NCBI RefSeq assembly: GCF_030758315.1
Contig: NZ_CP132336.1
Location: 682,001 to 746,000, forward strand
Length of the DNA: 64,000 nucleotides
Reading direction: 5' to 3'
Source: Pararhizobium sp. IMCC3301
GTDB lineage: Bacteria; Pseudomonadota; Alphaproteobacteria; Rhizobiales; GCA-2746425
The translations under genes and the position numbers were made by a program. A model generated the notes under the pieces. It made no database searches and was not told where the DNA came from. It saw only the letters and a program-made list of their open reading frames with translations. Positions 26,729 through 44,520 of this stretch are shown here, in pieces. Within the stretch, counting starts at the first letter, position 1. The number at the start of each line of letters is the position of its first letter.

Positions 26729-26762
26729 AGCTGCCCCATTGAATAGCGCTCAGGCTGGACAC

Positions 26763-27796: not shown

Positions 27797-27811
27797 TTCC
27801 ACAGAGCGGAA
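27797..27811. promoter_or_regulatory. Candidate IclR operator, copy 3 (inverted)
   Basis: TTCCACAGAGCGGAA is the reverse complement of the pattern TTCCGC-N3-GTGGAA found at 13493 and 21113. It lies 81 bases upstream of the DUF6282 start, a normal place for an activator or repressor site. Confidence 0.55.
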
Positions 27812-28081
27812 TGGGGTGCAACCCGATTGAGCAGAGTGGAAGGGTCAACACATGTTGAATAACTCCTTTTCATGATGAAGAAATTCAGTTTAAATTGCAG
27901 CAGATAGAGGCTTGTCGTGTGAAATTCGAATTTATTGTACGATATTTAGTGGCTTGGATTGCGCCTGTATTACGCCAATTCATTTTACTTTCCGCCATTC
28001 AGCCAAAATGGAGATCGACAACGGTCCATACCGACGCATAGTTTACACTTTCTCCGGTGTGAACGATTTTGCGGCGGTGTT
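27812..28081. other. Gene-free region upstream of the DUF6282 operon
   Basis: Together with the leader at 27717-27796, this forms a 365-base stretch without a gene. It is AT-rich for this window and holds promoter sequence, then the short insertion-sequence end at 28024-28063. Confidence 0.5.
28024..28063 (+). mobile_element. Short IS end remnant related to the one beside tRNA-Ser
   Basis: GTCCATACCG (28024-28033) is identical to 15847-15856, and the 27 bases at 28037-28063 match 15886-15912 at 25 positions, in the same orientation. A 29-30-base segment present at the first site is missing here between the two matches, leaving three bases. No transposase coding is seen. It marks the right border of the 15.8-28.1 kb block. 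Confidence 0.6.
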
Positions 28082-28267: not shown

Positions 28268-29650
28268 TCAGCGCGCGCCCAATGCGGCAAGCTTTGCATC
28301 TGACAGGTATGCATACCGGTTCATCTGCACCGGCCCCGCGCCCAACGCCTCAAACCGGCGCATGACATCCTCCAGTGGTCCATAACCGTGAGACATGCCC
28401 CAAACCGGGGTACTCCCCGCCTGGCCACGCACCTGATCGATCTTGCTGCGGATGGACGCGCTTGTCGCAGGGTGCGCATCCTGAGGGTCGGGATATTTGA
28501 TGTCGTTCGGGTCGCGTGGCATCTCCGGCGATAATTGCAACAGCCGACTGAGCAGTCGCGCGACCGCAGGTGGTGAAAAGTCGCTGCGGCTGGTCAGAGC
28601 TGACAGATAATCTGCCTCAATCAACGGCCAATGCATGGTGTAGAATTTCACCCCCATCGCATCGCAATTGGGCGCTACTGCCGCCGGGTCAAATCCGGTG
28701 GCGAGATTCAAAGGGGGTGGGAATGCGTGCAGGAACAATTTGCATTTGCCCTGGCTGGCCTCATCCACGGTTCTACGCAAGAACCTGGCGAAATCCGTGA
28801 CAACACTCCGGCGCAGTTCCAGAAGGTCGCCCAAAACAGGATAGGCGGTCAGCAGGCTATCGCGAAAACTGTCAAAATCCTCGAGCGATATGGCCTTGTG
28901 CCGAAGGGTACTGTCACCCAGATCGGACAGAAACGCCATGGTCCCGCGCGCCAGCACATCAAGATCCAGCCCCAGTGCTGCAGCATACGGTGCCATCGCC
29001 GGGTTGAAATCAAAAAACAGGGCGTCGAAATGATACACAGGATATTCGGGCCAGTCGAATTTCAGCCCGTCGATCTGCGGGTAGGTCTTGCACAGGTCCC
29101 GTGTGATGGCGCGGACATAGGCGCGCACATCGGACGACGCGAGGGAGGCATTGCGATCAACCCGCCCGGTGCGCGGCACCAAAGTGGGCAGCAACGGTTC
29201 ATCACCCGGCAACGGGCCGCCGAATTGAACCCTGTAACACGGCGGGATTGCCGCCTGAATCTGCATCCAGACCTCCAGTCCGCGCGCCTTGGCAGCATCA
29301 ACGAAATGCCCGACAACCGCGCCCTGATCGTCGGTCAGCGCGGTCGGTTCCGGCGGGCGATAGGCCAGACCTTCGTACAGCCGCGGGTCGGGCCGGAACG
29401 AAGGTGCCGCCGTCATCCACAATTCGCGCTGGCCCCAAAGTGAGCGGTCCAGCAACCGCTTTTGCCCCAACCCGCCATCGCTGGGTGGCTCCCGGTGGCC
29501 CGTACCCCCAGGTGCCAGAGACGCCACATAGGGCGATGTCGTCAGCGACCCGGCACGCGCCAGTCCGGCTATGTTGTCAAGCACCGCGTCAACACCCTCG
29601 GACTGGGCATATTCGGGCATGACGGTGATGCCGAGATCGGGATTGATCAT
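28268..29650 (-). CDS. Uncharacterised TIM-barrel-like protein, possible glycosidase
   Basis: This 460-residue protein is not one I recognise. Several features recall GH-like barrels: an early KARGLEVWMQIQAAIPPCY strand, the Asp-containing QIDGLKFDWPEYPVYHFDAL (Asp at a beta-strand end, as in retaining glycosidases), CDAMGVKFYTMHWP, and VWGMSHGYGPLEDVM near the end. No signal peptide is seen. It is the last gene of the LarA-sulfatase operon and overlaps the preceding enolase-superfamily gene by four bases, so it is very likely part of the same pathway. A glycoside hydrolase or lyase acting on a desulfated sugar fits best, but this is inference. Confidence 0.6.
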   Translation of the reverse strand: MINPDLGITVMPEYAQSEGVDAVLDNIAGLARAGSLTTSPYVASLAPGGTGHREPPSDGGLGQKRLLDRSLWGQRELWMTAAPSFRPDPRLYEGLAYRPPEPTALTDDQGAVVGHFVDAAKARGLEVWMQIQAAIPPCYRVQFGGPLPGDEPLLPTLVPRTGRVDRNASLASSDVRAYVRAITRDLCKTYPQIDGLKFDWPEYPVYHFDALFFDFNPAMAPYAAALGLDLDVLARGTMAFLSDLGDSTLRHKAISLEDFDSFRDSLLTAYPVLGDLLELRRSVVTDFARFLRRTVDEASQGKCKLFLHAFPPPLNLATGFDPAAVAPNCDAMGVKFYTMHWPLIEADYLSALTSRSDFSPPAVARLLSRLLQLSPEMPRDPNDIKYPDPQDAHPATSASIRSKIDQVRGQAGSTPVWGMSHGYGPLEDVMRRFEALGAGPVQMNRYAYLSDAKLAALGAR

Positions 29651-30735
29651 GTTGAAGGTCCGGACTCAGGTTGAGGCACTACCAGCGACAGGCCAAGACC
29701 GAGCCTGGACATTGGCAATGTTACACGTCCGCCAATGGGTTGCGGCAGCGCCTGATCGACCAGGCTATCGAACATCGGCGTCTCGTCAAACTGGGTTTCC
29801 AGGAGTTCCTCCTGCGGCAGAGAGGCACATATGTGCATGCTGTGCATGTGGCATATCGGACCAGACGGATTATGCGGCGAAAACGCCACGCCGTGGCGCG
29901 CCATATCGACGGAAATCGCCAGCATCTCTCGCGGGCCGCCGCAATATTTGACGTCCGGCATCATCACATCATAAGCACCCGCCGCCAGATAGGGCGCGAA
30001 CCCTTGCCGCAGGATTGCGGTTTCCAGTCCGGCAAGGCGCATGCCTGCGGCATTGGCCCGCCTGCGCAGGGACACCAGTTCCGCAATTCCAGCTTCGGTT
30101 TCCAAAATCGGGCATTCAATCCAGTACGGTTTCAACGGCGCGCAAGCGTCGATCAACCTTCCGGCACCGGCAACATCGAACCGCCAATGACAATCGACCA
30201 TCAGCCTCCGCTCGCCAACCACATCACGCACTGCGGCGATGCGGGCCAATCCAAGGCCCATCGCATCGGTCATTTCACGGCGGCCCATCGTTGCCCGAAC
30301 CTCGTCAAACGGTGCGACCTTGATCGCATTGTGACCATGCGCCAGCGCGCGGCGGGCATTACTCGCCATGCCTTCGGGGCTGCGATCCCGGGTGCTGCGA
30401 TTGATGTTGGCGTAAATCCCGATCTGGTCTCGCCCGGCGCGGCCAAGATGATCTGAAAGAGACACTCCTGCCATGCGTGCGGCCAGATCGGCTTGTGCCT
30501 GGCGCAGGGCCGAGGACAGGGCGGCCTGCGGCAGCGTATCGAACCGCAGATCGGCCAGATCGGCCTCAGTCAGGCGCTTCGGCAGAGCATTGAAACAATC
30601 AGTCACCGTCGCTTCCTGATTCTCCAATGTGGCCTCGCCCCAGCCGACAGTTTCACCATCGCTCAGCGACACGAAAAGCCAGATCGTGGCAGGTGTGACT
30701 GTGACGGGAACGAATTGAACGGTAAATTCGCTCAT
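29647..30735 (-). CDS. Enolase-superfamily (mandelate racemase/MLE type) enzyme 1
   Basis: The roughly 362-residue protein shows the enolase-superfamily plan: a capping domain, then the barrel with a Lys in HNAIKVAPFDEV, metal ligands in LMVDCHWRFD, YWIECPILE and a later Glu, an Asp in MPDVKYCGG, and the His of FSPHNPSGPICHMH. SPHNPSGP is common in sugar-acid dehydratases. It probably dehydrates an aldonate or related acid. The start at 30735 forms an ATGA overlap with larB. Confidence 0.85.
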   Translation of the reverse strand: MSEFTVQFVPVTVTPATIWLFVSLSDGETVGWGEATLENQEATVTDCFNALPKRLTEADLADLRFDTLPQAALSSALRQAQADLAARMAGVSLSDHLGRAGRDQIGIYANINRSTRDRSPEGMASNARRALAHGHNAIKVAPFDEVRATMGRREMTDAMGLGLARIAAVRDVVGERRLMVDCHWRFDVAGAGRLIDACAPLKPYWIECPILETEAGIAELVSLRRRANAAGMRLAGLETAILRQGFAPYLAAGAYDVMMPDVKYCGGPREMLAISVDMARHGVAFSPHNPSGPICHMHSMHICASLPQEELLETQFDETPMFDSLVDQALPQPIGGRVTLPMSRLGLGLSLVVPQPESGPST

Positions 30736-31373
30736 CTGTCCCCCAACATGCGCAACGCCGCACAAGCAGCGCCAAAGCCGTTGCCGATATTCACCGTCAC
30801 CAGCCCTGGCGCACAACTGCCAAGTGCTGCGTCCAGTGCAAGACGTCCACCCCGGGCCACGCCGTAACCCACCGGCGAGGGCACCGCTATGATCGGGGCG
30901 CGCGTAAGACCGGCCAGCACACTGAACAATGCGCCTTCCATCCCGGCGATGGCGATCAGGATGCGATGCTGGCGCAAAGACTCGATCTCATCCATCAGCC
31001 TCCAAAGCCCTGCCACGCCGACATCCGACGTGATCGACGCTTCTGCGCCGTGGAACGCCAATGTGCGTTGCGCCTCGGCGGCAATCGGCAAATCGGAGGT
31101 GCCAGCAGCGACGATGCCGATGCCCGTGCGCATTGGCTGAGCGGCCATTCCGCCGAGAATGGCGGTCTGGCTGACAGGGTCATAATCCCAGGTCTTGCGC
31201 GCCAGCGTTGCGGCCATATCGGCGCAAAGCCGCGTCAGCAGCAGGCGCTTTCCGGCGGCTTCGGCTGTATCCAGGATGGCGGCGATCTGGTCGACCGACT
31301 TGCCGTCGCAGAGTACGGCTTCGCTCGTTCCCGTGCGTGCGCCACGATCCCAGTCCATGCGATGGTCGGTCAT
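30732..31373 (-). CDS. larB: LarB, nickel-pincer cofactor synthesis carboxylase/hydrolase
   Basis: The 213-residue protein is LarB, which carboxylates nicotinic acid adenine dinucleotide at C5 and hydrolyses it, the first step to the nickel-pincer nucleotide (NPN). The PurE-like C-terminal half shows GIVAAGTSDLPIAAEA, DVGVAGLWRLMDEI, AIAGMEGALFSVLAG and VPSPVGYGVARGG. It is somewhat short at the N-terminus compared with the 246-residue Lactiplantibacillus protein. It is coupled to larE upstream and to an enolase-superfamily gene downstream by ATGA overlaps. Confidence 0.9.
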   Translation of the reverse strand: MTDHRMDWDRGARTGTSEAVLCDGKSVDQIAAILDTAEAAGKRLLLTRLCADMAATLARKTWDYDPVSQTAILGGMAAQPMRTGIGIVAAGTSDLPIAAEAQRTLAFHGAEASITSDVGVAGLWRLMDEIESLRQHRILIAIAGMEGALFSVLAGLTRAPIIAVPSPVGYGVARGGRLALDAALGSCAPGLVTVNIGNGFGAACAALRMLGDR

Positions 31374-32131
31374 TTATCCACTTTCAGGAATGCGGCACCC
31401 CTGCGATAAGGGCGGTGGCCAAGATAGTCGCGCCCGGTTTCACGACAGGCGGCGGCGATGGATGCGGGTGGTGCTTCACCTTCGGTTTCAACGATGACGC
31501 CTGCATGTGTGATGCGGCAACGCACTGTTGCCGCCTGCCCCAGATCAGCGCGCAACAACGTTTCCATATGATCGACGAAGGCCAGATCGCTTGCATTGAC
31601 TGCGATTCCGGTTTCGACCCGACTGGCAAGACACGGTTGGGCCGGCAATTCCGCCAGATCGCCAAATCCCAAATGTCTGGCCAGCGCATAGATTGCGGCT
31701 TTGTCCAGTCCGGCCTCGATATAGGGATGCACCACCTGCCACTGCTGCGCCGCCTCCAGGCCCGGACGAAAATCACCCAGATCGTCGCAGTTCGTACCTG
31801 ACGCGATGGGGCTGTTTGTCAGACCTGCAATCGCGGCGTATAAATTGGACTTGCAGAAAAAGCACCGGTTGACCGGGTTAGCACGATATCGCGGATCGTC
31901 GAATTCGCCGGCATCAACAAGCTCCAGCCGCCACCCCGACCTTGCCCCATGATCGCGGACTCGTTCCGTGGCCAAAGGTGGCACGGCGGGGGATATCGCG
32001 TGGACCATGCGCGCCCGCCGGCCAAGAACGGAATGAGCAATATGGGCCAGAATCATGCTGTCCACACCGCCGCTGACGGCGATGGTCAGTGCCTCGTGGC
32101 GGGAAATTGCTTCTGTCAGACGTGTACTCAT
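31370..32131 (-). CDS. larE: LarE, sacrificial sulfur-insertion enzyme for the nickel-pincer cofactor
   Basis: The 253-residue PP-loop ATPase adds sulfur to the dicarboxylated nicotinate nucleotide. The ATP loop SGGVDS is at residues 20-25, the segment NRCFFCKSNLY holds Cys 91 and 94, and Cys 168 in PCLASR matches the sacrificial Cys of the founding LarE. The overlap on both sides (ATGA) ties it to larC and larB. LarE normally loses its sulfur once per turnover unless it carries an iron-sulfur cluster; which type this is cannot be told by eye. Confidence 0.92.
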   Translation of the reverse strand: MSTRLTEAISRHEALTIAVSGGVDSMILAHIAHSVLGRRARMVHAISPAVPPLATERVRDHGARSGWRLELVDAGEFDDPRYRANPVNRCFFCKSNLYAAIAGLTNSPIASGTNCDDLGDFRPGLEAAQQWQVVHPYIEAGLDKAAIYALARHLGFGDLAELPAQPCLASRVETGIAVNASDLAFVDHMETLLRADLGQAATVRCRITHAGVIVETEGEAPPASIAAACRETGRDYLGHRPYRRGAAFLKVDK

Positions 32132-33255
32132 TGCTCATCCTTCCGCGCCTTGGCCCGGCGTGCAGCAAGGCTGGTCAAATCCGCAACGGCATCACTTTCG
32201 GCCTTGGAGGTCGTTTCGGCAGGGCGTATCGCGGCCTTGACGCCAGATATGACCACGCGCGGCAGGATCAGCCGCTGGTCTTGTCGCGACCGCAGGCCCA
32301 GCGTGGTGGTCTGGGCGAAAACGGCCTGTGCAACCGCATCAGCATGGAGCGGTTGGGCCATCAACCGAAAACCGGTGACGTGCCTGCCTTTCTTACCAAT
32401 CATGGGCAGGGTAACAAGATCCAACACGCCATCAAAGGACCGCAGATGGTCGCTTGCGACGGCAATCTCTTCGCCTGTCATGTCGTCAATGTCCCATTCC
32501 AAAATCGAGACCGTATCGCCGGGCTGCGACGGTCCGGAAATTACCTGCACGACGACCACATTGGCCAGGCCCGGTAAATCCCGGGTGCCAGCACCATATC
32601 CGGTCGCCTGCAGTCGGCCCATCGGACGGGAACGCAGTGTCAGGTGATCGGCGATGTAACGCATAATCGCTGCACCCGTCGGCGTCACCCGTTCACCGTC
32701 AATGCCATCATCCTGGACGGCCATGCCCTCCAGCAGATAGGCCGTTGCAGGGGCGGGAACCGGCAGAAGGCCATGTGCCGTTTTCACCGTGCCGCCGCCC
32801 AGGGGCAGCGGATCAAGACTCCAACTCCAGCCATCGAGCAGTCCAATCAGGGCGGCAGCGGCGGTCAGATCGGCCAGTGTGTCCCAATCGGCGATCTCGT
32901 GGAAATGTACCCGGTCCAGCGGCACATCATGAACCCTGGCCTCTGCCTCTGCCAGCAACCGCAGCATCGCCCTGGCATGGGTTCGGGTCACCTCGGGCAG
33001 ATCGGCACCGACCAGCATGTGGTCCATGTCGGGGTAATGGATCGGCGTCGATACATTCTGCTCGGGAACCGTGAAGCGCCATGCCGCGATACCGGCCTTG
33101 GTGCAATGCGAAAGCGTCGCGTTGAGATGCGGCAGGACAGCACCGGTTGCTTCTGTCACCGGATCAATGAAATCAGGAAATGCATCCAGCATGGCGGCGA
33201 CAAACATATCGCCCGCAATTCCGCCGAGCGGCGTGATATGGATATGCCCCTTCAA
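32128..33255 (-). CDS. larC: LarC, nickel insertase for the pincer cofactor
   Basis: The 375-residue protein is LarC (COG1641/DUF111), which inserts nickel into the thio-carboxylated nucleotide in a CTP-dependent step. It shows the family entry PLGGIAGDMFVAAMLDAFPD, RVHFHEIADWDTLADLTAAA, RVTPTGAAIM and WDIDDMTGEEIAVA. The start is a TTG at 33253-33255 that overlaps the stop of the UxaA-like gene (TTGA). In some species larC needs a frameshift between two frames; here it is one continuous frame. Confidence 0.92.
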   Translation of the reverse strand: MKGHIHITPLGGIAGDMFVAAMLDAFPDFIDPVTEATGAVLPHLNATLSHCTKAGIAAWRFTVPEQNVSTPIHYPDMDHMLVGADLPEVTRTHARAMLRLLAEAEARVHDVPLDRVHFHEIADWDTLADLTAAAALIGLLDGWSWSLDPLPLGGGTVKTAHGLLPVPAPATAYLLEGMAVQDDGIDGERVTPTGAAIMRYIADHLTLRSRPMGRLQATGYGAGTRDLPGLANVVVVQVISGPSQPGDTVSILEWDIDDMTGEEIAVASDHLRSFDGVLDLVTLPMIGKKGRHVTGFRLMAQPLHADAVAQAVFAQTTTLGLRSRQDQRLILPRVVISGVKAAIRPAETTSKAESDAVADLTSLAARRAKARKDEQ

Positions 33256-34409
33256 ACCGATGGCCCGAGGCGCGAGATCACCTCATCCCCGTCCCGGTTC
33301 CGCTCCACTGCCGTCAGCGCGCCGTTGCAGACACTGGTAACCAAAGCGACGAGACCGGGCAACACGGCCGCCCGCTCGCGCAGACCGCGAAACACCTCCG
33401 AGGCGTCAAAGTCGATCTGATCCGGCAGGCGCGCGGCCGTGTCGGGATTGGCCGTCAGCTTTATGGTTGGCGCCAGCGCGCTGCCATAGGGGTTGCCGTG
33501 ACCGGTAGTGAAACAAACGATCTGGGACCCGGAGGCGACCATCGAGGATATGGATTCAGGCGACAGGGTCGGCGTGTCCATAAGATGGAGACCGGGACCG
33601 GTGATCGCTTCACCCTCAGACAAGGCACCCATGATCGGCCCGGTGCCGCCCTTGGATATAGCGCCCAGCGACTTTTCCTCAAGCGTGGTGATACCGCCGA
33701 TGTGGTTCTGCGGCCCTGGATTGCCGATATGGATGTCATGCCCTGCGGCCGCGGTGATCGCATGACGGGCCTGCACCAGATGGCTCAGGCGGGCGGCCAC
33801 ATCCGGTGTCGTGCAGCGCGCGTAAAGGCCTGGCTCGCATCCCAGCCATTCCAGCGTCTCCGCGAACACGGCCGCGCCACCCAGGGCGATGTGATGATCG
33901 AAAAGATCCCCCACCAGCGGGTTGGCAACGACGCCTGACGAGGCGTCGGAATGTCCGCATTCAGCCGCGATAATGAGGTCCGACATCGGGCAATTCGCCT
34001 GCGGTTCGCCCTGCACCTGCGCCAACAGGCGGTTCCCTTCTGCGATGGCTGCGGCGGTCATCGCGGTGCCGTCCTCGCCCCATCGTTGCAGCGAAAATCC
34101 CGAAACCGCCCTCCCGGATGCAGCCACCTTATCGGCCATTGCATCGCACAGCCCGTCATCGGGGGCCAGGATCAGGACAGCGCCGGTGTTGGGATGGGTG
34201 GCAAAGGCCAACAACATATGATCGTGAAATGCCCTGTCCGCGCCGACGTGGCCGCGTCCATAGGGACTGGAAATCAACACGGCATCGGGCAAATCCGCCG
34301 AAACCCGCCGTGCGCCCGGAGCGTTCAGGCCGCACATCGACAGGATCACGAGATGATTGCGAATCCCCGGCCGCCCATTGGCGCGGGGAAAGCCCTGAAA
34401 TGTGCTCAT
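33252..34409 (-). CDS. UxaA/SuyB-family hydro-lyase, large subunit
   Basis: The 385-residue protein belongs to the altronate/galactarate dehydratase large-domain family, with GFPRANGRPGIRNHLVILSM at the start, ECGHSDASSGVVANPLVGD, GNPGPQNHIGGITTLEEKSL and TTGHGNPYGSALAPTIKLT. It is split from its small SAF-domain partner (next gene), an arrangement also seen in (R)-sulfolactate sulfo-lyase SuyAB, whose subunits have nearly the same sizes. A sugar-acid dehydratase role fits the operon, but a sulfo-lyase cannot be excluded. Confidence 0.87.
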   Translation of the reverse strand: MSTFQGFPRANGRPGIRNHLVILSMCGLNAPGARRVSADLPDAVLISSPYGRGHVGADRAFHDHMLLAFATHPNTGAVLILAPDDGLCDAMADKVAASGRAVSGFSLQRWGEDGTAMTAAAIAEGNRLLAQVQGEPQANCPMSDLIIAAECGHSDASSGVVANPLVGDLFDHHIALGGAAVFAETLEWLGCEPGLYARCTTPDVAARLSHLVQARHAITAAAGHDIHIGNPGPQNHIGGITTLEEKSLGAISKGGTGPIMGALSEGEAITGPGLHLMDTPTLSPESISSMVASGSQIVCFTTGHGNPYGSALAPTIKLTANPDTAARLPDQIDFDASEVFRGLRERAAVLPGLVALVTSVCNGALTAVERNRDGDEVISRLGPSV

Positions 34410-34672
34410 CGCAGCCCTCCTTGAAGATTATGCAGATGCACATGCTGGCCGGGCAGGATGTCGATCGTGGCGTGGCCGATTACGGCACCGAACTTGATCA
34501 CTGGCGTGCCCTTGGCAATCGCGACCAGGGCGATTTTGTGGCCCATCGGCGTGTCAGATTTCAGCGCAACGGTCGGGCCGGTCGGCAAGGTCGCGCATTC
34601 GCCGGCTAGATGATCGCGCAGCAGACAGGCCACATTATCGTCGGGGTGGATCAAGATTGCGGACACCGTCAT
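34406..34672 (-). CDS. UxaA/SuyA-family SAF-domain small subunit
   Basis: The 88-residue protein is a single SAF domain, with ALKSDTPMGHKIALVAIAKG, the glycine-rich turn VIKFGAVIGHAT and a final VHLHNLQGG. Such domains pair with the large UxaA/SuyB subunit; HVHLHN is a conserved metal- or substrate-side motif. Both ends overlap neighbours by four bases, which is the strongest coupling one can see in DNA. Confidence 0.87.
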   Translation of the reverse strand: MTVSAILIHPDDNVACLLRDHLAGECATLPTGPTVALKSDTPMGHKIALVAIAKGTPVIKFGAVIGHATIDILPGQHVHLHNLQGGLR

Positions 34673-35802
34673 AGCGTGACTTCCAGGCGGGCGGTCAAAA
34701 GATCCTTGAGCGCGTCGACATCGGGATCAAAGCCAAGTCCCGGTCCAGTGCTGATCGGGAACAGCCCGTCTTCCAGAGCCAATCCACGGCCTGAAAACAC
34801 AGGAATGAACGGGTTTTCGGAACTGTCGACCTCCAGCACCCCGTCGCCGCCGATTGCTGCCAGCAGGTGAGCGGAGGCGGCGAGCCCGACGCCGCCGCCC
34901 AGAAAATGAGGGCAGTACCGCCTGCCCGCGGCCACGGCGGCGCGCGCTACCTTGTACGTCGTAGAAAGACCGCCCCATTTACATATGTCCGGCTGGATCA
35001 CCCCCAACGCGCCCAGTGCGATGGCCCGGTCAAAGGCACCACCGGTCAGATTCTCGCCGCCCGCAAGAGGCATTGACGCGGCGCGGGCCAAACTCAGCCA
35101 GTCATCGTCCGAAGCGTCTGCAGACAAAGGTTCCTCAAGCCAAACCAGATTCATGTTTGCCAGGCGTTTGCTCTGGCTCAGCGCAGAGGCAAGATCCCAG
35201 GCCTGATTAGCATCCAGCATCAAGGTTTCGCCTTCTTGCAGGGATTGTTCGGTGTCTTCGGCAGCTCCGATGCCATCGTCAGGACCGAACCCGATGCGCT
35301 GTTTGAACTGGCGATATCCCAGCGTGCGCATGCGTTCGATCTGCTCGGGGGCCTTGTCGGGACTGATGCCGCTGGCATAGGCGGGGACGGCGGAGACGGT
35401 CCCGCCCAGCATTTGCGATATGGACACACCTGCCCGGCGGGCGCGCAAATCATGCAGCGCAATATCTGCGGCGCAGGCGATTTGCGCCACTGGTCCAGGC
35501 TCGCCGCATTGCAGGATCAGCCGGTGCAGCCGCCGCAGGATTTGCGCGAAAGCATCGGGGGTTTCTGCTGTCATCCCGGCCAGCGCCGCCGGCAGTATCC
35601 GGGTCGCCAAACGGGCACGGTGATAATCCCCATCGGGTGGAAAGTTGCACCAGATCTCGCCCCAGCCATGCGCGCCCTCGGCATCTTCCAGCCGCAAGAG
35701 CAGCGCCGGCCGGTGGGTCATCGGGCCCATAACCGTGGCAATGGGCTGTGGCAGCGCGTGCCGGAAATGATGGATCGTGGCTTGGGACAGCGGAGCCGAC
35801 AT
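34669..35802 (-). CDS. Enolase-superfamily (mandelate racemase/MLE type) enzyme 2
   Basis: This 377-residue protein has the superfamily residues in order: a Lys-x-Arg in YRQFKQRIGFG, metal ligands in LMLDANQAWD, WLEEPL and AGGENL, then QPDICKWGGLS and the His in CPHFLGGGVGLAAS. The KxR in place of KxK suggests a dehydratase rather than a racemase, though this is inference. It differs clearly from enzyme 1 at 29647, so the operon has two distinct enolase-type steps. The ATG at 35802 (MSAPLSQ) overlaps the sulfatase stop; a GTG one codon earlier is also possible. Confidence 0.85.
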   Translation of the reverse strand: MSAPLSQATIHHFRHALPQPIATVMGPMTHRPALLLRLEDAEGAHGWGEIWCNFPPDGDYHRARLATRILPAALAGMTAETPDAFAQILRRLHRLILQCGEPGPVAQIACAADIALHDLRARRAGVSISQMLGGTVSAVPAYASGISPDKAPEQIERMRTLGYRQFKQRIGFGPDDGIGAAEDTEQSLQEGETLMLDANQAWDLASALSQSKRLANMNLVWLEEPLSADASDDDWLSLARAASMPLAGGENLTGGAFDRAIALGALGVIQPDICKWGGLSTTYKVARAAVAAGRRYCPHFLGGGVGLAASAHLLAAIGGDGVLEVDSSENPFIPVFSGRGLALEDGLFPISTGPGLGFDPDVDALKDLLTARLEVTL

Positions 35803-37253
35803 CACGCGTCCTCCAGCCGGTTCATTGCCGGATCAAGCGGCCACAGATGCGTGCTGACCGGGTTCGTCTGCCGGGCCCAGGCAGCCAGAATATCCTTGTT
35901 CGCACGGCGCTTTTCCATCCGCTCCCGAATGGCATCCGGATCCCAACCGTCCAACACCCGGGCCAGCATGCGCGCGACGCGCTCGGCGTGTTCGGGATCG
36001 TCGGCCAGATCGGCAAGTTCCTGCGGATCGTTGGCAAGGTCATACAGCCGTGGCGATTCGCCGTTATAATAGTGCAGCTTCCAATCGCCTTGCCGCAGCA
36101 TGCGCTGTTGCACCGCCCGCCCCCCGGTCCAGGCAGGCACGGCGTCGGTGCAATATTCGCTGAATACGGCATTGTCCCAGTCGTGGTGCCCGTCGGTCAA
36201 CAATGGCCAGAAACTGCGCCCGTCGGCGTCCGGCAAGGGCGGAGCACCCATCGCGTCGATCATGGTCGCCGACAGGTCTACCAGACTGACCACCTCGTCA
36301 CGAGTGCCTGGGGTCAGCGAAGGATGCGCCAGGATCATCGGCACCTTGGCACTTTCATCAAAGAATGTGTGCTTCCACCACAACCCGCGCTCGCCCACAT
36401 GCTCGCCATGATCGGAGGCGTAGACGATCAGCGTGTCGTCGCTCAGTCCCAGCTTCTCGACCCGGTCAATGATCTGGCCGATCATCTCGTCCAGTTCCGC
36501 CACCAGCCCCCAATACGCCGCCCGAGCCAGGCGAGACTGCCGCTCCGGCACCTCGCCGATGACCCGGTTCTGACGCCACCACGCGATCCAGCCCGCATCG
36601 CTGGCCCCGGCAGGGATTTCGGGCGGCGGCAGCACGGTCATGAAATGGTCCACCCAACGGCGCGCGGCGACATAGGGAGCATGGGGCAGCATGAACCCCA
36701 CCGTCAGGGCAAATCGTTCGCCGCTTGAGGCCAGCCGGTCAAGGGCTTTCAGCGCAGCGTCGGTAGTATCGTGGTCTTTCAACTCATAGGCGGACTGTCC
36801 CGCACCGCAAGCGATCAGGCTTTCCGGGTTCGGATCGTTGGTACCTTGCAAGACGCCCATATTGTGCCAGGCAACACCGGGATAGTTGGGCGAATGATCG
36901 CCGACCTCGCGCCAGGCATAGCCACGCATCTGATCCGGACCGACCGAATGCATGCGGCCGACAAGACCAGGGATTATCCCCGCCGCGCCCAGCGCGTGCA
37001 GCCAGGTGGGGTGGTCGGAACCCAGCACGTCGTCATTGGTCCAGCAATCCTGTGACGAGGGATAACATCCCGTCAGCATCGACATGCGCGAGGGGGTGCA
37101 GATCGGTGACGGACAATAGGAATTCGTCATCCGTACACCCTTGCCTGCCAGCCGGTCGAGCGCGGGCGTGATGGCATGCAGCTCGCCAGCGCAGCCCATA
37201 ATATGGGCCGCATGTTGGTCGGAGAAGAGGAACAGCAGGTTTTTGGGGGTCAT
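35802..37253 (-). CDS. Type I sulfatase, cytoplasmic (LarA operon)
   Basis: The 483-residue sulfatase has the N-terminal metal segment LLFLFSDQHAAHIMG, the formylglycine motif CTPSR at residues 52-56 and SRMSMLTG after it, and the second metal block LIVYASDHGEHVGERG. There is no signal peptide. It is coupled by overlaps to the LarA homologue upstream and an enolase-type enzyme downstream. It is closer to the choline-sulfatase/SGSH-like branch than to the other sulfatase in the operon (38548), so two different sulfate groups or substrates may be handled. Confidence 0.9.
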   Translation of the reverse strand: MTPKNLLFLFSDQHAAHIMGCAGELHAITPALDRLAGKGVRMTNSYCPSPICTPSRMSMLTGCYPSSQDCWTNDDVLGSDHPTWLHALGAAGIIPGLVGRMHSVGPDQMRGYAWREVGDHSPNYPGVAWHNMGVLQGTNDPNPESLIACGAGQSAYELKDHDTTDAALKALDRLASSGERFALTVGFMLPHAPYVAARRWVDHFMTVLPPPEIPAGASDAGWIAWWRQNRVIGEVPERQSRLARAAYWGLVAELDEMIGQIIDRVEKLGLSDDTLIVYASDHGEHVGERGLWWKHTFFDESAKVPMILAHPSLTPGTRDEVVSLVDLSATMIDAMGAPPLPDADGRSFWPLLTDGHHDWDNAVFSEYCTDAVPAWTGGRAVQQRMLRQGDWKLHYYNGESPRLYDLANDPQELADLADDPEHAERVARMLARVLDGWDPDAIRERMEKRRANKDILAAWARQTNPVSTHLWPLDPAMNRLEDA

Positions 37254-38551
37254 CGTTCCAACCGGTTCAGGAGGGTTCCAGTTTCGTCGAACCGCAAAGG
37301 CGCGGGATCATCGTGGTCGATCACGACGCCCTGCGCCTTCAGTTCCGGCAGCAGGTTGGCGGTGACAGCGATTTCATCCAGCTGTGCGGATGAGATGATG
37401 TGACACAGCCGCGGCGCGCCCGCGCTCCAGCAGGTGGCGACCAGCGCGCGGATGACGGTGGCCTCATCCGGCAGGACGATGGGAATGTATGCCTTTTCAA
37501 GGATCGTGGCGGTGATCGCATTCATGTACATTGCCTGCAAATCCAGCGCATTCGCCATTGCACGGGGGATGTAATCGGCCATTCCGACGCCGATCCCATT
37601 GCCGTCGGTACGGTCGGTCAGCGCCAATGCCGCGATCTTGTGGATAAAGGGCGTTGCCGGGTTGTCGACCCCGCGAATATCGGTACGGCCCGAAATGGCG
37701 GGGTCGATACCCGCGCCCGAGATATCCTTGCCCAGCCGTTCGATCAGCAGGCCGTCCAGTTGATCGAAAGGCAGTCGCGCCATGGCCTTTTTGGCGGTTT
37801 CGAGAAGCCGCATGTCAGTTTCCGCGAAATTGGCCGGGGCGACTGCCTCAATATGGCTGAGCTGTTTGTGGGAATTCTCGACCAATGCAAGACCGGCAGT
37901 GATCGGTGCATTGTCGATGATCTTTCGCGCAAGCGCGGGCAGTGTTTCGTCAAAGCCGCGCGGCCCGATCATGTGCACCTGCCGAGCCCCGCCGGCCTTT
38001 CCCAGCCCCACGGCCAGCATCTTGGTCAGCCCGCTTTCTATAGGACGCGGAAAACTTGTATGCGCCTTGACGCGGTTGATGACCAGCACACCGTCGGCGC
38101 GCGCCGCATGGGCGTCGAAATGGCAGGTCGTGCCATCGGCCAGGTCGGCATATTGCACCGTGTCCATCGTTGCGCGGATCTGGCAGCCCATCGCGTCTTC
38201 GGTAACGCCCAGCTTGGCCAGAACCGCCCGTTGCCCCTCGGCAGTGCCGCCGCCATGCGAGCCCATTCCGGGCACGATAAAGGGGGCGTAGCCGCGGCCC
38301 TTAAGCCAAGCGACTGCTGCCCGCGCAACAGTGTCAATTTGGGCAATACCCCGGCTTCCGACCGCCACGGCAATCTCGGACCCCGCCGGCAGGTTGAACA
38401 GGTTCGACGCGGCGAGCGCCTCCGCGACCGAGGCCGCCACATCATCCAGCGCCGCCACATCAGGTTGGCGCAGGCGCAGGCGGACGAAATCGGGCAAGTC
38501 CACCGATTGCAAATGCGGCAGATTGATAGCGGGGAACACTGGTTTCGTCAT
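37250..38551 (-). CDS. LarA homologue: nickel-pincer-dependent racemase/epimerase
   Basis: The 433-residue protein carries the LarA N-terminal (DUF2088) fold. Residues that align with the lactate racemase active site are present: His99 in PGMGSHGGG (LarA His108), His164 in NRVKAHTSF (His174), Lys177 in ESGLTKMLAVG (Lys184, the covalent attachment of the nickel-pincer cofactor) and His193 in RQVHMIG (His200, nickel ligand). The Lys-His spacing of 16 equals that in LarA. Known LarA homologues racemise 2-hydroxy acids or epimerise gluconate at C2. With sulfatases and sugar-acid dehydratases in the operon, a sugar-acid 2-epimerase is likely. It overlaps both neighbours by four bases. Confidence 0.85.
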   Translation of the reverse strand: MTKPVFPAINLPHLQSVDLPDFVRLRLRQPDVAALDDVAASVAEALAASNLFNLPAGSEIAVAVGSRGIAQIDTVARAAVAWLKGRGYAPFIVPGMGSHGGGTAEGQRAVLAKLGVTEDAMGCQIRATMDTVQYADLADGTTCHFDAHAARADGVLVINRVKAHTSFPRPIESGLTKMLAVGLGKAGGARQVHMIGPRGFDETLPALARKIIDNAPITAGLALVENSHKQLSHIEAVAPANFAETDMRLLETAKKAMARLPFDQLDGLLIERLGKDISGAGIDPAISGRTDIRGVDNPATPFIHKIAALALTDRTDGNGIGVGMADYIPRAMANALDLQAMYMNAITATILEKAYIPIVLPDEATVIRALVATCWSAGAPRLCHIISSAQLDEIAVTANLLPELKAQGVVIDHDDPAPLRFDETGTLLNRLER

Positions 38552-40035
38552 TGGGGCACCGTGAGGTTAAAGCGGGCGTAAAGCTCGGGTGGTGAATCAT
38601 GGGTGCACATCGTCCGCGCCATATCGGCGCAAAACCGCGCCTCGATGTCCGGGTCGCGAAACGGTGCCATCTGATCCGGGTCGGCGCCGAGATCGTAAAG
38701 CACTGTCTGCGTGTCATCGAACCCGCCGCCCTGCATCGGTGGACGCTTGGCCCCTTTGATCGCGGGGATTTTCAGCACCGGCATGCCCTGGGTGAAATCG
38801 AAACCAGCGTGCAGAGTTGCCTGGCTCAGTTCGGTCGCAGCAAAGGCCGCGCCGGAATGTTGCGGCATCAGCGTGTACTCAAAGATGGCTGTGGCCTCCA
38901 TCTCCGCAGGATAGCGGAAATAGCTGTGATGCCCGTCGGTGGCGTTGAGTGCGCCGCCGAAAATACCGAAAAGCGCGATTTCACGACCTTTGGCCCCGTG
39001 CAAAAGCGACCGCCCCTGCACCGTTTGCGGCCGGTCGATGCCGAAAAGATCAAGCAGCGTCGCCATCACGTCGATGTTCTGGCTCAGTTCCGCAGAGCGT
39101 CCAGTCGCCTGCCCCGGCGCGTGGATAAACAGCGGAATGCGGGAAATTTCGGAATAGAATGGCATCCGGTTCTTGCCCCACCAGCCGTGTTCGCCCAGCA
39201 TGAAGCCGTGATCGGTGGTCACGATCAGCGCCGTATCGCGCCACATGTCGCCCGCATCCATCGCATCCAGAAGCCGCCCAAGCTGGGCATCGCACATCGC
39301 CACAAGGGCTGCCTGGCTTGCCACCAGATCGGCGGTATCGTCCCCCGGTTCGTCGCGGCGGTAGCGCGGCCAGTCCCGCACCTTTTCGCCCGCTGTCGGA
39401 AAACCTGCACGGAATTCGGGCGGTGCATGGAAAGGCTCGTGCGGATCGAATACCTCGATCTGGAGGAACCAATCCTCGTTCCGGGCATGCGCCTCCAGAA
39501 ACGCCAGACCGGCATCGAATGTCTTCACAGTCGGAAATTCCGGCGTCTCGCGGATACGCGTTCGGTTCATTGCGGCCTGAAGGCGGTAGCCCGAAGCGTC
39601 GGTCTCCACCTGTTCGGCGTGATACTGTGCCGCGAAGGCAGCATGCGGCGGGGCGATGCACGGCACCCAGGGATCGGCCTCCTGCCCGCGAATGAAATCC
39701 CAGCTGTCGAAAGCAGTGTGATAGGTGGCACCACCGTTTTCGAAATAGTGGTAATGATCGGTGACCAGGTGGCTGTGAACGCCCGCTTGTCGCATCAGCC
39801 CCGTGGCCGTTACATCAAAAGGTTCCAGTGGTCCCCATGAGCGGTGCAGAAAATTCAATCGCCCGGTCTGCAGATCGCGCCGCGCTGGCATACAGGGCAA
39901 AGAGCCGACGATGTGTCTGTCGAACTGGACACTGCGCGCCGCCAGACGGTCAAAATTCGGGGTTGGATGTGCCCCGCCATAGCAGGACAAGGATTTGAGG
40001 GTCAGCGAATCATATAGCAAAAGAACAGCCTTCAT
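38548..40035 (-). CDS. Type I sulfatase, cytoplasmic, paralogue of the 55.7 kb enzyme
   Basis: The 495-residue sulfatase begins MKAVLLLYDSLTLKSLSCYG, with the formylglycine motif CMPAR at residues 48-52 and the long match RRDLQTGRLNFLHRSWGPLE. The second metal block reads LIVTTDHGFMLGEHGWWGK. The first metal segment has DSL where most sulfatases have DD or DQ, a trait shared with the paralogue at 55750. No signal peptide is present. It lies six bases after the tctA gene and overlaps the LarA homologue, so it is central in the operon. Confidence 0.9.
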   Translation of the reverse strand: MKAVLLLYDSLTLKSLSCYGGAHPTPNFDRLAARSVQFDRHIVGSLPCMPARRDLQTGRLNFLHRSWGPLEPFDVTATGLMRQAGVHSHLVTDHYHYFENGGATYHTAFDSWDFIRGQEADPWVPCIAPPHAAFAAQYHAEQVETDASGYRLQAAMNRTRIRETPEFPTVKTFDAGLAFLEAHARNEDWFLQIEVFDPHEPFHAPPEFRAGFPTAGEKVRDWPRYRRDEPGDDTADLVASQAALVAMCDAQLGRLLDAMDAGDMWRDTALIVTTDHGFMLGEHGWWGKNRMPFYSEISRIPLFIHAPGQATGRSAELSQNIDVMATLLDLFGIDRPQTVQGRSLLHGAKGREIALFGIFGGALNATDGHHSYFRYPAEMEATAIFEYTLMPQHSGAAFAATELSQATLHAGFDFTQGMPVLKIPAIKGAKRPPMQGGGFDDTQTVLYDLGADPDQMAPFRDPDIEARFCADMARTMCTHDSPPELYARFNLTVPQ

Positions 40036-40041
40036 CGCCTG

Positions 40042-41547
40042 CTAGCCCTCTTCGCTTGCCCGAGCCTTGGCCTTGCGCCGCCGCTCGGAAATGATCGGCC
40101 AAACCAGCAGCGCAATGGCCATCAGCGTGAAGGCAAGCGGGAACGGCCGGGTGACGATGGGGGAAAAATCCCCGGCCGTCATCATCAGCCCGCTGCGCAG
40201 CTTTTCCTCGCCCAGCGGTGCCAGAACAAAGCCGATGACAAAGGGGCCAAGCGGGATGCTGGCCCTTTCCATCAAAAACCCGATCACCCCGAATACCAGC
40301 ATCACCCAGACGTCGAACATGGTGTTGTTCAGCGCGTAGGACCCGATGACGCAGAACATCATCACGATGGGCAGAACGAAGCTTTTGGGCAGATAGATCA
40401 GGCCCGAAATGTATCGGACCGACGATGTCATCAACACAAACATCAGGATATTGGCCAACAGGGCAGCGGCAATCATGCCCCAGACAATGTCGTTGTTGGT
40501 CAGGAACAGGGTTGGGCCCGGCTGGATCGAATGAATGGTCAGCGCGCCGATCAGGATCGCATCAATGACGCTTCCCGGGATACCCATCGCGATCAGCGGG
40601 ATCAGCGCGCCGCCTACCGTGGCGTTGTTGGCAGCCTCCGAAGCGATGATGCCCTCCTCCGAGCCATGCCCGAATTTCTCGGGTGTGTCGGACATGTTCT
40701 TCGCCACAGTATAGGCCACGACAGACCCGATGGACGCGCCGATGCCCGGCAGGATGCCGATCCAGGTCCCGATGAATGACGACCGGATCATGTTGCCGGC
40801 GTTGCGCCGAAGATCACGCAGCGACATCAGGACCTTGGAGGACTTCAACTCCTGCCGTTCGGGCACGCCGCCGCGATCCATACAATCCTTGATCACCTGA
40901 CTTACGGCAAACGTGCCGATCAGCACCGGCAAAAGCTGCAAGCCACCGTTCAACTGGTAGAATCCGAAGGTCAGCCGCGGCATGCCGCTGGAGGGGTCCA
41001 CCCCCGGCATCGACACCAGCATACCCAGAAGCCCCGCAATCAGCCCCTTGACCAGCGACCCCTCGCTGACCGACGCGATCAGCACCATGGCCATCATGAT
41101 AAGCGTGAAATATTCGAACGGCCCGAACCGCGTGGCCAGGATCGACAGCGGCTGCGTGATTGTCAGCAGCACCATCCAGGACACCAGGCCGCCGACGAAT
41201 GAGGCGGTGATGCCCAGACCCAGGGCGCGGCCCGGTTGTCCGGAGCGGGCCATGGGATAGCCGTCCAGTGTGGTCATCACCGACGCGGGCGTGCCCGGCA
41301 TCCGCATCAGCGTCGCGGTGATCAAACCACCGGAAATGGCGCCGACATACATGGCAATCAGCAGAACGACGGCATCGAACGGGTCCATGTAAAACGTCAG
41401 CGGCAGGGTCAGCGCGATCAGCATCGCCCCTGACAGGCCCGGAATTGCGCCCACCACGATTCCCAGCGCTGTGCCAAGAAACAACATGAAGAACGTCCAA
41501 GGGGCAAAGATGTGTCCGATGGCGCCAAAAAGTGCGGGAAGATCCAA
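40042..41547 (-). CDS. Tripartite tricarboxylate transporter large permease (TctA family), second copy
   Basis: The 501-residue membrane protein has the TctA signatures GAIPGLSGAMLIALTLP, MYVGAISGGLITATLMRMPG, GILPGIGASIGSVVAYTVAK and EAANNATVGGALIPLIAMG. It is clearly related to the 10.3 kb copy but not identical. With TctB and TctC it should import the sulfated acid used by the operon. It follows tctB by nine bases. Confidence 0.92.
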   Translation of the reverse strand: MDLPALFGAIGHIFAPWTFFMLFLGTALGIVVGAIPGLSGAMLIALTLPLTFYMDPFDAVVLLIAMYVGAISGGLITATLMRMPGTPASVMTTLDGYPMARSGQPGRALGLGITASFVGGLVSWMVLLTITQPLSILATRFGPFEYFTLIMMAMVLIASVSEGSLVKGLIAGLLGMLVSMPGVDPSSGMPRLTFGFYQLNGGLQLLPVLIGTFAVSQVIKDCMDRGGVPERQELKSSKVLMSLRDLRRNAGNMIRSSFIGTWIGILPGIGASIGSVVAYTVAKNMSDTPEKFGHGSEEGIIASEAANNATVGGALIPLIAMGIPGSVIDAILIGALTIHSIQPGPTLFLTNNDIVWGMIAAALLANILMFVLMTSSVRYISGLIYLPKSFVLPIVMMFCVIGSYALNNTMFDVWVMLVFGVIGFLMERASIPLGPFVIGFVLAPLGEEKLRSGLMMTAGDFSPIVTRPFPLAFTLMAIALLVWPIISERRRKAKARASEEG

Positions 41548-41556
41548 TTGGCCTCC

Positions 41557-42033
41557 TCAGACCGGCAGGTCGACTACGAAGATTTCAGTGAATACGTACT
41601 GCGCGCCAAAGGCGGCAAGGGCCGACAGGATCGCCGCGGGCAGAATACGACGGCGGGCAAACCCCTCCAACCCGAGAATCAGCAGCAACAAATAGACAAA
41701 AGTGACGATGCCAAAGCCCGCCAGCTTGAGTTGCAGCGCGCCGACATAGGCCACGGTCAGACCCAGTACGATGGCGCCCCCGATCGGGTGGCCGCCGGAA
41801 AATTCCCGATGCGCCGTCCTGGCAATGCTGGTGCCGCGCATCGACAATGCCGCACCAACGATGACGGCCAGACAGCACAGGATCACGATGGCGGCGGTCC
41901 AGATCGGCACCGGACCCGAGCCCAGGGGTTCAAACCGCCCCGGTGGCAGGGCCAGCGCCTGGACCAGAAATACCGCCGTGATCAGCGCGATCAGCGCGGA
42001 AACGCCAATTTCGGTCAGGGGACGTCGATCCAT
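41557..42033 (-). CDS. Tripartite tricarboxylate transporter small permease (TctB family), second copy
   Basis: The 158-residue protein has about four membrane segments and the TctB pattern, including PLGSGPVPIWTAAIVILC. It is the small partner of the TctA protein encoded directly downstream. A strong stem-loop lies just before it, between it and tctC. Confidence 0.85.
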   Translation of the reverse strand: MDRRPLTEIGVSALIALITAVFLVQALALPPGRFEPLGSGPVPIWTAAIVILCCLAVIVGAALSMRGTSIARTAHREFSGGHPIGGAIVLGLTVAYVGALQLKLAGFGIVTFVYLLLLILGLEGFARRRILPAAILSALAAFGAQYVFTEIFVVDLPV

Positions 42034-42054
42034 GGGATGCGCCTTTCCAGACGG

Positions 42055-42087
42055 GTTGGCGCGCCCGCATCTCCGGGACGCGCCAAC
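42055..42087 (-). other. Intercistronic stem-loop between tctC and tctB
   Basis: The arms GTTGGCGCG (42055-42063) and CGCGCCAAC (42079-42087) form a perfect 9-bp stem with a 15-base loop and no U-run. Stems like this after a binding-protein gene protect the upstream mRNA or partly stop transcription, so that more receptor than permease is made. Confidence 0.6.
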
Positions 42088-42106
42088 GTGATCCTGTTAC
42101 TATGGC

Positions 42107-43081
42107 TCAGTTTTCGGCGGCGAGTTTTGCCACAGGCTCGATCGCGGCCCAAGTCGAGTCCAGGTCCGCCTGGAGCGCCTCGCCGGTCAGAAAGGATTCC
42201 GCAAAACCCTTATCGTTCAGGAATTTCTGAAACCGGTCGGTCTTGATTGCCACGCCGATGGCACCGGCAAAACCGTCAACAACCTCTTGCGGAGTGTCCT
42301 TGGGAGCGAAGATCCAGTTCTTGATGCAGAAGGTCATGTCAAAACCTTCTTCCTTCATCGTTGGAAGTTCGGGCAAGCCTACGAACCGTTCTGCGCCGGT
42401 ATAGGCCAGCGGCTTGATTTGGCTTTCCGGATTTTCGGAACCATCCGGCAGCAGGGTGAAGTTGATGACCTCTGCCCCGGACAGAACAGTCGCATTGGTC
42501 TGCGCGCCGGTCAGGGCAGTAAAGTTGGCTGTGCCACCACCAATCTGGACAAAGCGGAACTTTGCCCCTGGCATGGTTTCCTGCATCATCACGCCGGCCA
42601 GGTGGTTGATGGCACCAATGTTGGCACCGAAGATCAACGTATCCGGATCAGCCTTGGCTTTTTCCAAAAGCTCGCCAACGCTGTTGATGCCGCTGTCCTT
42701 GCGGACCATCGGGGACAAACAAAATTCGCCCGTTGCCGCCACCGGCTTGAAGTCACGCCAGCTGAAATCCAGCGCGCCGGTACCCTCGCCGCCCATCAGC
42801 GCAATGTGGATAATCAGGAAGTTATAACCATCGGCATCTGCTTCCATCACTTGCCGCGCACCGATGGAATAGTGCCCACCAACGTTGACCACCGTCACCG
42901 GCTGCGACAGCGCGCCGGATTCCTCGATGCCAGCCTGAAGAATGCGGGCCACCTGATCCGACGTGCCCCCGGCACCAAATGGCACCACAAGCTTGATCGG
43001 CTTTTCAGGCCATTCCGCCTGGGCCATCCCCGTTCCCGCAAGCATTGCAGCGACCGCAAGTCCCAAAAATCTCTTCATCAT
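42107..43081 (-). CDS. TctC-family periplasmic substrate-binding receptor, second copy
   Basis: The 324-residue receptor has a Sec signal peptide (MMKRFLGLAVAAMLAGTGMA) and the entry AEWPEKPIKLVVPFGAGGTSD, typical of TctC/Bug proteins. Two ATG codons are adjacent; the GGAGG site is better placed for the second (43078). It is the first gene of the long operon. The G+C-poor leader upstream (43082-43150) probably holds the promoter. Confidence 0.92.
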   Translation of the reverse strand: MMKRFLGLAVAAMLAGTGMAQAEWPEKPIKLVVPFGAGGTSDQVARILQAGIEESGALSQPVTVVNVGGHYSIGARQVMEADADGYNFLIIHIALMGGEGTGALDFSWRDFKPVAATGEFCLSPMVRKDSGINSVGELLEKAKADPDTLIFGANIGAINHLAGVMMQETMPGAKFRFVQIGGGTANFTALTGAQTNATVLSGAEVINFTLLPDGSENPESQIKPLAYTGAERFVGLPELPTMKEEGFDMTFCIKNWIFAPKDTPQEVVDGFAGAIGVAIKTDRFQKFLNDKGFAESFLTGEALQADLDSTWAAIEPVAKLAAEN

Positions 43082-43187: not shown

Positions 43188-43482
43188 ACTGCGCAGCCCA
43201 ACTTTGTCTTGATCACCGTCGGCCTGTGCCCCAGAATTCTGCTTGATCTGGCTGGCAGATTCGACATCGACACACCGGCGCTGAACCTGATCGCAAACAC
43301 CGGCATGTATTTCCCCAACGCCCGGTCTCAGTGTCTGATCTGCAATCCCCCGGTGATTGCTGGTTGGCATTGGCGCGCCGCCGCAGCCCGTGTCGCAGAA
43401 TCGCTGGCTGTATGGCCAACGCGGATTGCACTATCCCGAGCCACCTCAGGATGATCTGACAAACAGTATCGGCGCGCCCTAA
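43188..43482 (+). pseudogene. Decayed sulfatase gene fragment
   Basis: In the spacer between tctC and lysR, the plus strand reads TAQPNFVLITVGLCPRILL, FDIDTPALNLIANTGMYFPN and ARSQCLICNPPVIAGWHW. This is the N-terminal pattern of a type I sulfatase (QPNFVLITTDQQR..., DTPALDRIA, NA-SQCPICNPSR-TGWHP), with the metal Asp segment and the CxPxR motif ruined. After a frameshift near 43411 it continues LYGQRGLHYPEPPQDDL to a stop. It is a small relic of a fifth sulfatase, in the opposite orientation to the operon. Confidence 0.6.
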
Positions 43483-44387: not shown

Positions 44388-44520
44388 GATGCCAATCTGC
44401 AACGATTTTGATCGCCAGGACAACAGTTTTGAAATGGCAGGCCCTGCCGCCTCCCGGTGCCACACAGATGTAGAACGGGCCTGATACCGGCGGCGGCAGA
44501 ATCATACGTTAAGCTTTTTG

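Follow-up and report, generated by a model that had tools for sequence, protein, structure and literature searches.

Organisation of the operon

The 64,000-nucleotide stretch of the Pararhizobium sp. IMCC3301 genome analysed here (contig NZ_CP132336.1, positions 682,001 to 746,000; 'the window') contains a run of 14 minus-strand genes extending from 43081 to 28268, with families assigned by hmmscan (Table 1). The run encodes a tripartite tricarboxylate (Tct) transporter, two sulfatases, a homologue of the nickel-pincer enzyme LarA (referred to here as LarA22), two enolase-superfamily enzymes (enolases 1 and 2), a hydro-lyase split over two genes, the cofactor proteins LarB, LarC and LarE, and a 460-residue protein without a family. 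An earlier reading of the sequence alone (the sequence-only reading) had proposed a single minus-strand operon of this composition, and the family assignments agree. It had also described nearly every junction between 40035 and 28268 as a four-base overlap. Ten junctions connect sulfatase 1 (start at 40035) through to the last gene, and this holds for nine. The remaining one, between sulfatase 2 and enolase 1, is a one-base overlap with the ATG start; a start at the GTG at 35805 would make it four bases. The three junctions preceding sulfatase 1 are gaps of 6, 9 and 73 bases. For enolase 2, the listed open reading frame begins further upstream, at 30816. A LysR-type gene upstream of the run is a possible regulator of the operon.

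Table 1. Genes of the operon and the adjacent regulator gene (L027 and L028 are related loci from other genomes)
Feature	Position	Strand	Support
TctC, solute-binding protein of the tripartite tricarboxylate transporter	42107..43081	-	PF03401 2.7e-18; 74% identity in L027 and L028
TctB, small membrane subunit	41557..42033	-	PF07331 1.8e-11
TctA, large membrane subunit	40042..41547	-	PF01970 7.3e-148; identity 84% in L027, 82% in L028
S1 sulfatase 1	38548..40035	-	PF00884 4.4e-31; C48-M-P-A-R motif, kept in L027 and L028
LarA homologue LarA22, nickel-pincer isomerase group 22	37250..38551	-	NF052515 451 bits, cut-off 400
S1 sulfatase 2, choline-sulfatase-like	35802..37253	-	PF00884 5.8e-41; C52-T-P-S-R motif; closest PDB entry 6fny
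Enolase-superfamily enzyme 1	34669..35805 (ATG at 35802)	-	PF13378 1.1e-46; closest PDB entry 3ddm, 3.1e-94
SAF-domain small subunit of split GarD/UxaA-type dehydratase	34406..34672	-	PF08666 25.0 bits, cut-off 21
GD_AH large subunit of split dehydratase	33252..34409	-	PF20629 8.5e-72; PF04295 4.2e-16
LarC, nickel insertion	32128..33255	-	PF01969 6.2e-83; TIGR00299 and NF052512 above cut-off
LarE, sulfur transferase	31370..32131	-	TIGR00268 231 bits, cut-off 150
LarB, carboxylase of nickel-pincer nucleotide synthesis	30732..31373	-	NF033503 230 bits, cut-off 175
Enolase-superfamily enzyme 2, acid-sugar-dehydratase-like	29647..30735	-	PF13378 9.4e-41 (scored on the longer open reading frame)
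460-residue protein without family	28268..29650	-	no Pfam or NCBIfam match
LysR-type regulator, upstream of the operon	43479..44465	-	PF00126 and PF03466

The nickel-pincer enzyme and its cofactor genes

LarA22 consists of 433 residues and falls in the NCBIfam family 'nickel pincer cofactor-dependent isomerase, group 22'. The sequence-only reading had called it a DUF2088 protein. Membership in the LarA family is borne out by this assignment, by the predicted fold and by the cofactor residues, but the protein gives no match to the Pfam family itself (Lar_N/DUF2088, PF09861). Among group 22 genes of other genomes, six score weakly over the Lar_N cut-off (4.5e-8 to 2.6e-5) and two fall below it (1.7e-4 and 5.2e-4). 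An AlphaFold2 model of LarA22, built from 38 sequences, has a predicted local distance difference test (pLDDT) score of 92.7. Foldseek searches with this model return 13 PDB matches at E <= 1e-3 (best 2.2e-11), every one of them in the LarA family: lactate racemases, malate racemases or single-histidine LarA-like enzymes. The query template modelling scores are only 0.38-0.55, perhaps due to a rotation of the domains. The fold search was needed to reach these relatives, as phmmer and hmmsearch comparisons of LarA22 with PDB sequences yielded nothing but chance matches, mostly to TAL repeats.

Alignment of the LarA22 profile with ten classical LarAs by hhalign (E 1.4e-4, probability 52.5%) covers the N-terminal 190 columns only. 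Within it, R67, H99, H164, K177 and H193 of LarA22 pair with R72, H106, H173, K183 and H199 of the classical enzymes; the residues of LarA that bind the nickel-pincer nucleotide (NPN) or act in catalysis are numbered R75, H108, H174, K184 and H200 (PMC11770544). All five residues of LarA22 are invariant in the 38 aligned group 22 sequences. This alignment (A3) was drawn from 40 loci picked by hand from the 80 described below; L038, L060 and L088 were dropped for internal stops, and the remaining 37 were joined by the window sequence. As the equivalents of both catalytic histidines are invariant in 38 of 38, LarA22 looks like a two-histidine LarA enzyme, outside the single-histidine groups of PMC12611868. 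Its NCBIfam assignment is to group 22. The D-gluconate 2-epimerases (LarA groups 18-20) are marked by signature residues in a loop, alpha-11 and alpha-14 (PMC7583248), C-terminal positions that lie beyond the N-terminal span of the hhalign alignment. No reaction is named for group 22 in the available text of PMC7583248 or PMC11770544, and the term 'group 22' was not found in the LarA literature searched.

LarB, LarC and LarE each score above a curated cut-off (Table 1). The LarC1 and LarC2 domains are fused in one open reading frame; in Lactiplantibacillus plantarum they are split. LarE has the cysteines C90, C93 and C167 in a CXXC-C arrangement of the [4Fe-4S] type; the CXXC and distant cysteine of Thermotoga maritima LarE bind a [4Fe-4S] cluster (PMC9283937). 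Searches of the host genome found no second LarA22, no Lar_N protein and no second LarC, and the three cofactor proteins therefore most likely serve LarA22. The sequence-only reading had raised the possibility that LarB, LarC and LarE serve an unrelated LarA, and none was found here.

Conservation in related genomes

A scan of genome contigs with LarA22 has at least 586 relatives, and the 80 best of these were considered. Two of the 80 hold the cluster, so the gene set outlined by the sequence-only reading is conserved in other genomes. In a Rhodobacter metagenome-assembled genome (L027) all 14 genes are present in unchanged order, with 54-84% identity and one inserted fragment of a formylglycine-generating enzyme (FGE) gene. 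Such agreement in gene content and order means that the grouping is not due to chance. The Afifella metagenome-assembled genome (L028) retains nine of the 14 in order: TctC, TctB, TctA, sulfatase 1, LarA22, sulfatase 2, enolase 1, SAF and GD_AH. An additional sulfatase lies ahead of LarA22 in this locus, and LarB, LarE and LarC are on a separate contig. In all three clusters that hold LarA22, the gene adjoins that of sulfatase 2, and in the window it has four-base overlaps with sulfatase genes on both sides.

The 460-residue protein has no match in Pfam, NCBIfam or a PDB profile search, and an AlphaFold2 model from two sequences has a pLDDT of 34 and no usable fold, which leaves its earlier description as barrel-like unconfirmed. 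Eight aligned sequences (A2) share invariant E13, D199, E202 (in a DWPE motif), H340 and H421. A search over 397 genomes of the order gave ten matches, seven of them strong and the window genome included; the genome of L028 (taken to be G662) is not among the matches listed. Within these 397 genomes LarA22 is present in 11, the 460-residue protein strongly in seven, and both in four. Treating this co-occurrence statistically was discarded, as it is confounded by one genus (g59).

Two further genomes (G585 and G605) have the 460-residue gene together with enolases 1 and 2, sulfatases, TctCBA, the GD_AH/SAF pair and a LysR-type gene, with no LarA22 in the cluster. Fragments of this core lie on short contigs in G562 and G641, and in G610 and G483 the 460-residue gene is more isolated. 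LarA22 and LarC are encoded outside the cluster in G585, G562 and G483, and neither was found in G605, G641 or G610. In the G605 locus (L146, 2298-19901) the enolase/460-residue core is surrounded by two sets of Tct genes and by several sulfatases.

Sulfatases

The catalytic domain of both sulfatases starts at residue 4. In sulfatase 1 a signal peptide would not fit ahead of the domain, and both enzymes are predicted to be cytoplasmic. The sequences C-M-P-A-R in sulfatase 1 and C-T-P-S-R in sulfatase 2 match the formylglycine motif C-x-P-x-R. With the choline-sulfatase family TIGR03417 (cut-off 433) sulfatase 2 scores 274 bits and sulfatase 1 scores 92, both short of the equivalog level.

Sulfatases are matured by FGE. 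The host genome has two FGE-domain genes, both outside the operon. The description of the operon as self-contained is therefore correct as regards the nickel cofactor, but does not extend to the maturation of the sulfatases. In both relatives an FGE-domain gene does lie within the cluster, at full length after the dehydratase in L028 and as the C-terminal part only after LarB in L027, which ties the removal of sulfate esters to the cluster. The L027 gene (17877-18395) apparently lacks its N-terminal half (profile positions 125-254 of 255), reflecting either an assembly error or decay. In both loci a LysR-type gene (incomplete in L027) also adjoins a divergent sulfatase, and LysR-type genes are found near the cluster in L145 and L146 as well. 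A weak sulfatase match (23%) is present near LarA22 in L092.

Dehydratases and enolase-superfamily enzymes

The sole PDB match of the GD_AH subunit at E <= 0.001 is the galactarate dehydratase 6u7l (3.7e-29). The two share the GD_AH domain and the CG-SD, NPxPxN and FTTGxGxPYG stretches, and the operon has a SAF subunit beside GD_AH. In contrast to 6u7l, the dehydratase of the operon is split over two genes, and GD_AH scores 131 bits with the galactarate dehydratase family TIGR03248 against a cut-off of 731, below the equivalog level. Enolase 1 carries K-x-R at strand 2, QPD and PH motifs, and enolase 2 carries D-x-H and HNP motifs. The best NCBIfam family for enolase 2 is galactonate dehydratase, at 106 bits and under the cut-off of 311.

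In mandelate racemase chemistry, the second lysine at strand 2 acts as the base towards one configuration at C2. All three clusters that hold LarA22 (window, L027 and L028) encode an enolase 1 with K-x-R at this place, and all four clusters without LarA22 there (L134, L144, L145 and L146) encode one with K-x-K. Loss of the second lysine would make an epimerase useful. A tentative extension of these patterns, which we regard as rather unlikely, is that LarA22 replaces the second face of enolase 1 within the catabolism of sulfated sugar acids, with the K-x-R enzyme taking one epimer and LarA22 supplying it. Counting against this, distant enolase-superfamily genes beside LarA22 in haloarchaea (L081 and L084; 27-30% identity) keep K-x-K. 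The contrast across the seven clusters, which represent two lineages, may also be a single evolutionary change.

Genomic contexts of group 22 genes

Neighbour counts over the 80 group 22 loci are lower bounds, since many loci end at contig ends. Sugar-acid families near LarA22 include gluconokinase (21 loci), 6-phosphogluconate dehydrogenase (14), PdxA-type (11), D-threonate-kinase-type (10) and glucuronate isomerase (8), each named through one representative, with that of threonate kinase under its cut-off. A GarD/UxaA-type gene is near LarA22 in eight of the 80, counting L027 and L028. Other neighbours are an SDR family (33), LarE (25), LarB (22) and LarC (18). In five loci of Actinomycetota, Chloroflexota and Bacillota (L046, L060, L068, L091 and L099), LarA22 is followed after 12-215 bases by a SAF match on the same strand and then by UxaA; the LarA22 stretch of L060 contains a stop. 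Given that sugar-acid genes recur as neighbours and that other LarA groups include D-gluconate 2-epimerases (PMC7583248), the group 22 reaction would best be read as epimerisation of a sugar acid at C2.

In L091 (Bacillus sp. Marseille-Q3570, 10001-15893) LarA22, SAF, a UxaA-type gene, TctC and TctA lie on one strand, with no match to the window sulfatases, and the pairing apparently arose independently. LarE, LarB and LarC come after LarA22 in four Bacillota loci (L045, L048, L059 and L064), each of which also contains a gluconokinase-family gene.

Proposed route and alternatives

With moderate confidence, the operon can be read as serving the catabolism of one or more sulfate-ester sugar acids through inversion at C2 by LarA22 and subsequent dehydration. 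The sulfated sugar acid would enter through the Tct transporter, and the cytoplasmic sulfatases would take off the sulfate. LarB, LarE and LarC of the operon would make the nickel-pincer nucleotide, and LarA22 loaded with it would invert C2 through proton-coupled hydride transfer. The resulting epimer would then be dehydrated to a 2-keto-3-deoxy acid, either by the SAF/GarD-UxaA enzyme or by an enolase-superfamily dehydratase. The C2 site, the order of the steps and the substrate are what we infer from the observed gene content and its conservation, the LarA fold, the cofactor residues and the sulfatase motifs.

Several observations weigh against this reading. All enolase and GarD matches are under the NCBIfam equivalog cut-offs, which leaves substrate specificity unassigned. 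Neither an aldolase nor a kinase for a 2-keto-3-deoxy acid was found among the genes of the cluster, and L027, L028, L134 and L144-L146 contain no match to the HpaI- and GarR-like genes located at 24108-26728. LarA22 occurs in only 11 of the 397 genomes of the order and in none of the four other genomes of the genus; this absence from the genus, together with a G+C content of 61.8% in the operon against 56.7% in the window, makes horizontal gain of the operon likely. The sequence-only reading had treated the nickel step as integral to the sulfatase/dehydratase route. LarA22, LarB, LarC and LarE do lie inside the operon, but the Tct/sulfatase/enolase/GarD core is present in G605, whose genome has neither LarA22 nor LarC, and G641 (89% complete) has a fragment of this core on a 3.3-kb contig (sulfatase, 460-residue protein and enolase 1), again without either gene. 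The nickel step is thus a separable module, absent from some versions of the cluster.

Occurrence of the core without this module also fits a different role, in which lactate or some other small 2-hydroxy acid is racemised by the nickel module (LarA22 with LarB, LarC and LarE), and this module only travels with the sulfatase/dehydratase cluster or feeds a by-product of it. Compact LarA22-LarC-LarE-LarB sets with no match to the window sulfatases nearby (L120-L124, L126, L014 and L096) agree with such a role. So does Haloferax volcanii, the sole genome among 14 controls with a group 22 match, which has LarC and no Lar_N match: lactate racemase is attributed to this species and to Haloarcula in a review table (PMC7700177). 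The group 22 gene is a candidate source of the Haloferax volcanii activity, and if it is the source, some group 22 members may racemise lactate, which would also tell against the sugar-acid route. However, LarA22 lies between overlapping sulfatase genes in the window and beside sulfatase 2 in all three clusters, and group 22 genes adjoin GarD/UxaA-type genes in other phyla. We therefore consider a role confined to small acids rather unlikely.

A more improbable alternative is that LarA22 does not invert C2 but directs its NPN-dependent hydride chemistry to a different carbon, or catalyses some other isomerisation. The distance from classical LarAs seen with hhalign would allow this, as would the lack of a named group 22 activity in the available text of PMC7583248 and PMC11770544; equivalents of both catalytic histidines (H108 and H174 of LarA) are nevertheless kept in 38 of 38 sequences, unlike in the single-histidine groups (PMC12611868). 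The operon could also be concerned with a sulfonate rather than a sulfate ester, with SAF/GD_AH as a SuyAB-type sulfolactate sulfo-lyase and LarA22 as a sulfolactate racemase. SuyAB shares the two-gene layout, and Tct-type sulfolactate transporters are known. This reading appears very improbable: the sole solved relative found for GD_AH is the galactarate dehydratase 6u7l (its relation to SuyB being uncompared), and the two ester sulfatases, the FGE genes in the relatives and the two enolase-superfamily enzymes would be unaccounted for.

Relation to described systems

The sequence-only reading knew of no described pathway in which a pincer-nickel enzyme acts on desulfated sugar acids. This does not extend to sugar acids as such, for D-gluconate 2-epimerases have been published: GntE1 of Corynebacterium glutamicum and GntE2 of Thermotoga maritima, of LarA groups 19 and 20 (PMC7583248). 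The absence of a link to sulfatases stood, in that no route joining a nickel-pincer enzyme with sulfatases was found in the literature searched (supplementary tables and most subscription papers fell outside its scope). One candidate, PMC10132767, was rejected as a LarA-sulfatase paper, 'Lara' being part of author names in its available text. Like LarA22, GntE1 and GntE2 are NPN enzymes of the LarA superfamily, with sugar acids as substrates and group 19 located near uronate genes (PMC7583248). They differ from LarA22 in group, and the operon adds sulfatases, the Tct transporter, two enolase-type enzymes and the GarD/UxaA pair.

The LarABCE lactate racemase systems of Lactiplantibacillus plantarum and Thermotoga maritima likewise use LarB, LarC and LarE to make NPN for a LarA enzyme. 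In contrast to these, no lactate gene was recognised among the 14 of the operon, and LarC is in one open reading frame. SAR202 genomes resemble the operon in combining many enolase-superfamily enzymes, proposed to act in sugar-acid catabolism, with many sulfatases, but no operon of such layout is described in the available text (PMC6946804 and PMC10444878). The terms 'lactate racemase' and 'nickel' are absent from the main texts of both papers. LarA enzymes acting on sugar acids, and sulfatases and enolase-type enzymes sharing SAR202 genomes, are thus already known; these comparisons suggest that a nickel-pincer enzyme and sulfatases in one sugar-acid route would be new.

Together with the GarD/UxaA, gluconokinase and threonate-kinase-type neighbours, the operon narrows the candidate group 22 substrates to hexonates, aldarates and tetronates, sulfated or free, with lactate as a rival. 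If correct, the proposed route would give a rare organometallic nickel cofactor a place in the degradation of sulfated carbohydrates, and would provide candidate substrates for sulfatases that are now without any.

Flanking genes

Downstream of the operon, at 23489-27851, lies a minus-strand set comprising a DUF6282/PHP-like gene, an HpaI/GarL-type aldolase, an unassigned open reading frame, a GarR-type reductase and a flavin reductase. The set looks like the lower half of a galactarate/aldarate-type route. The L027, L028, L134 and L144-L146 clusters contain no match to any of its genes, and for this reason the set was excluded from the operon; weak matches (24-27%) occur only in L037, L042, L095, L127 and L142. 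Upstream of the operon, an RND-type efflux transporter (PF00873) is encoded on the minus strand at 46398-49442.

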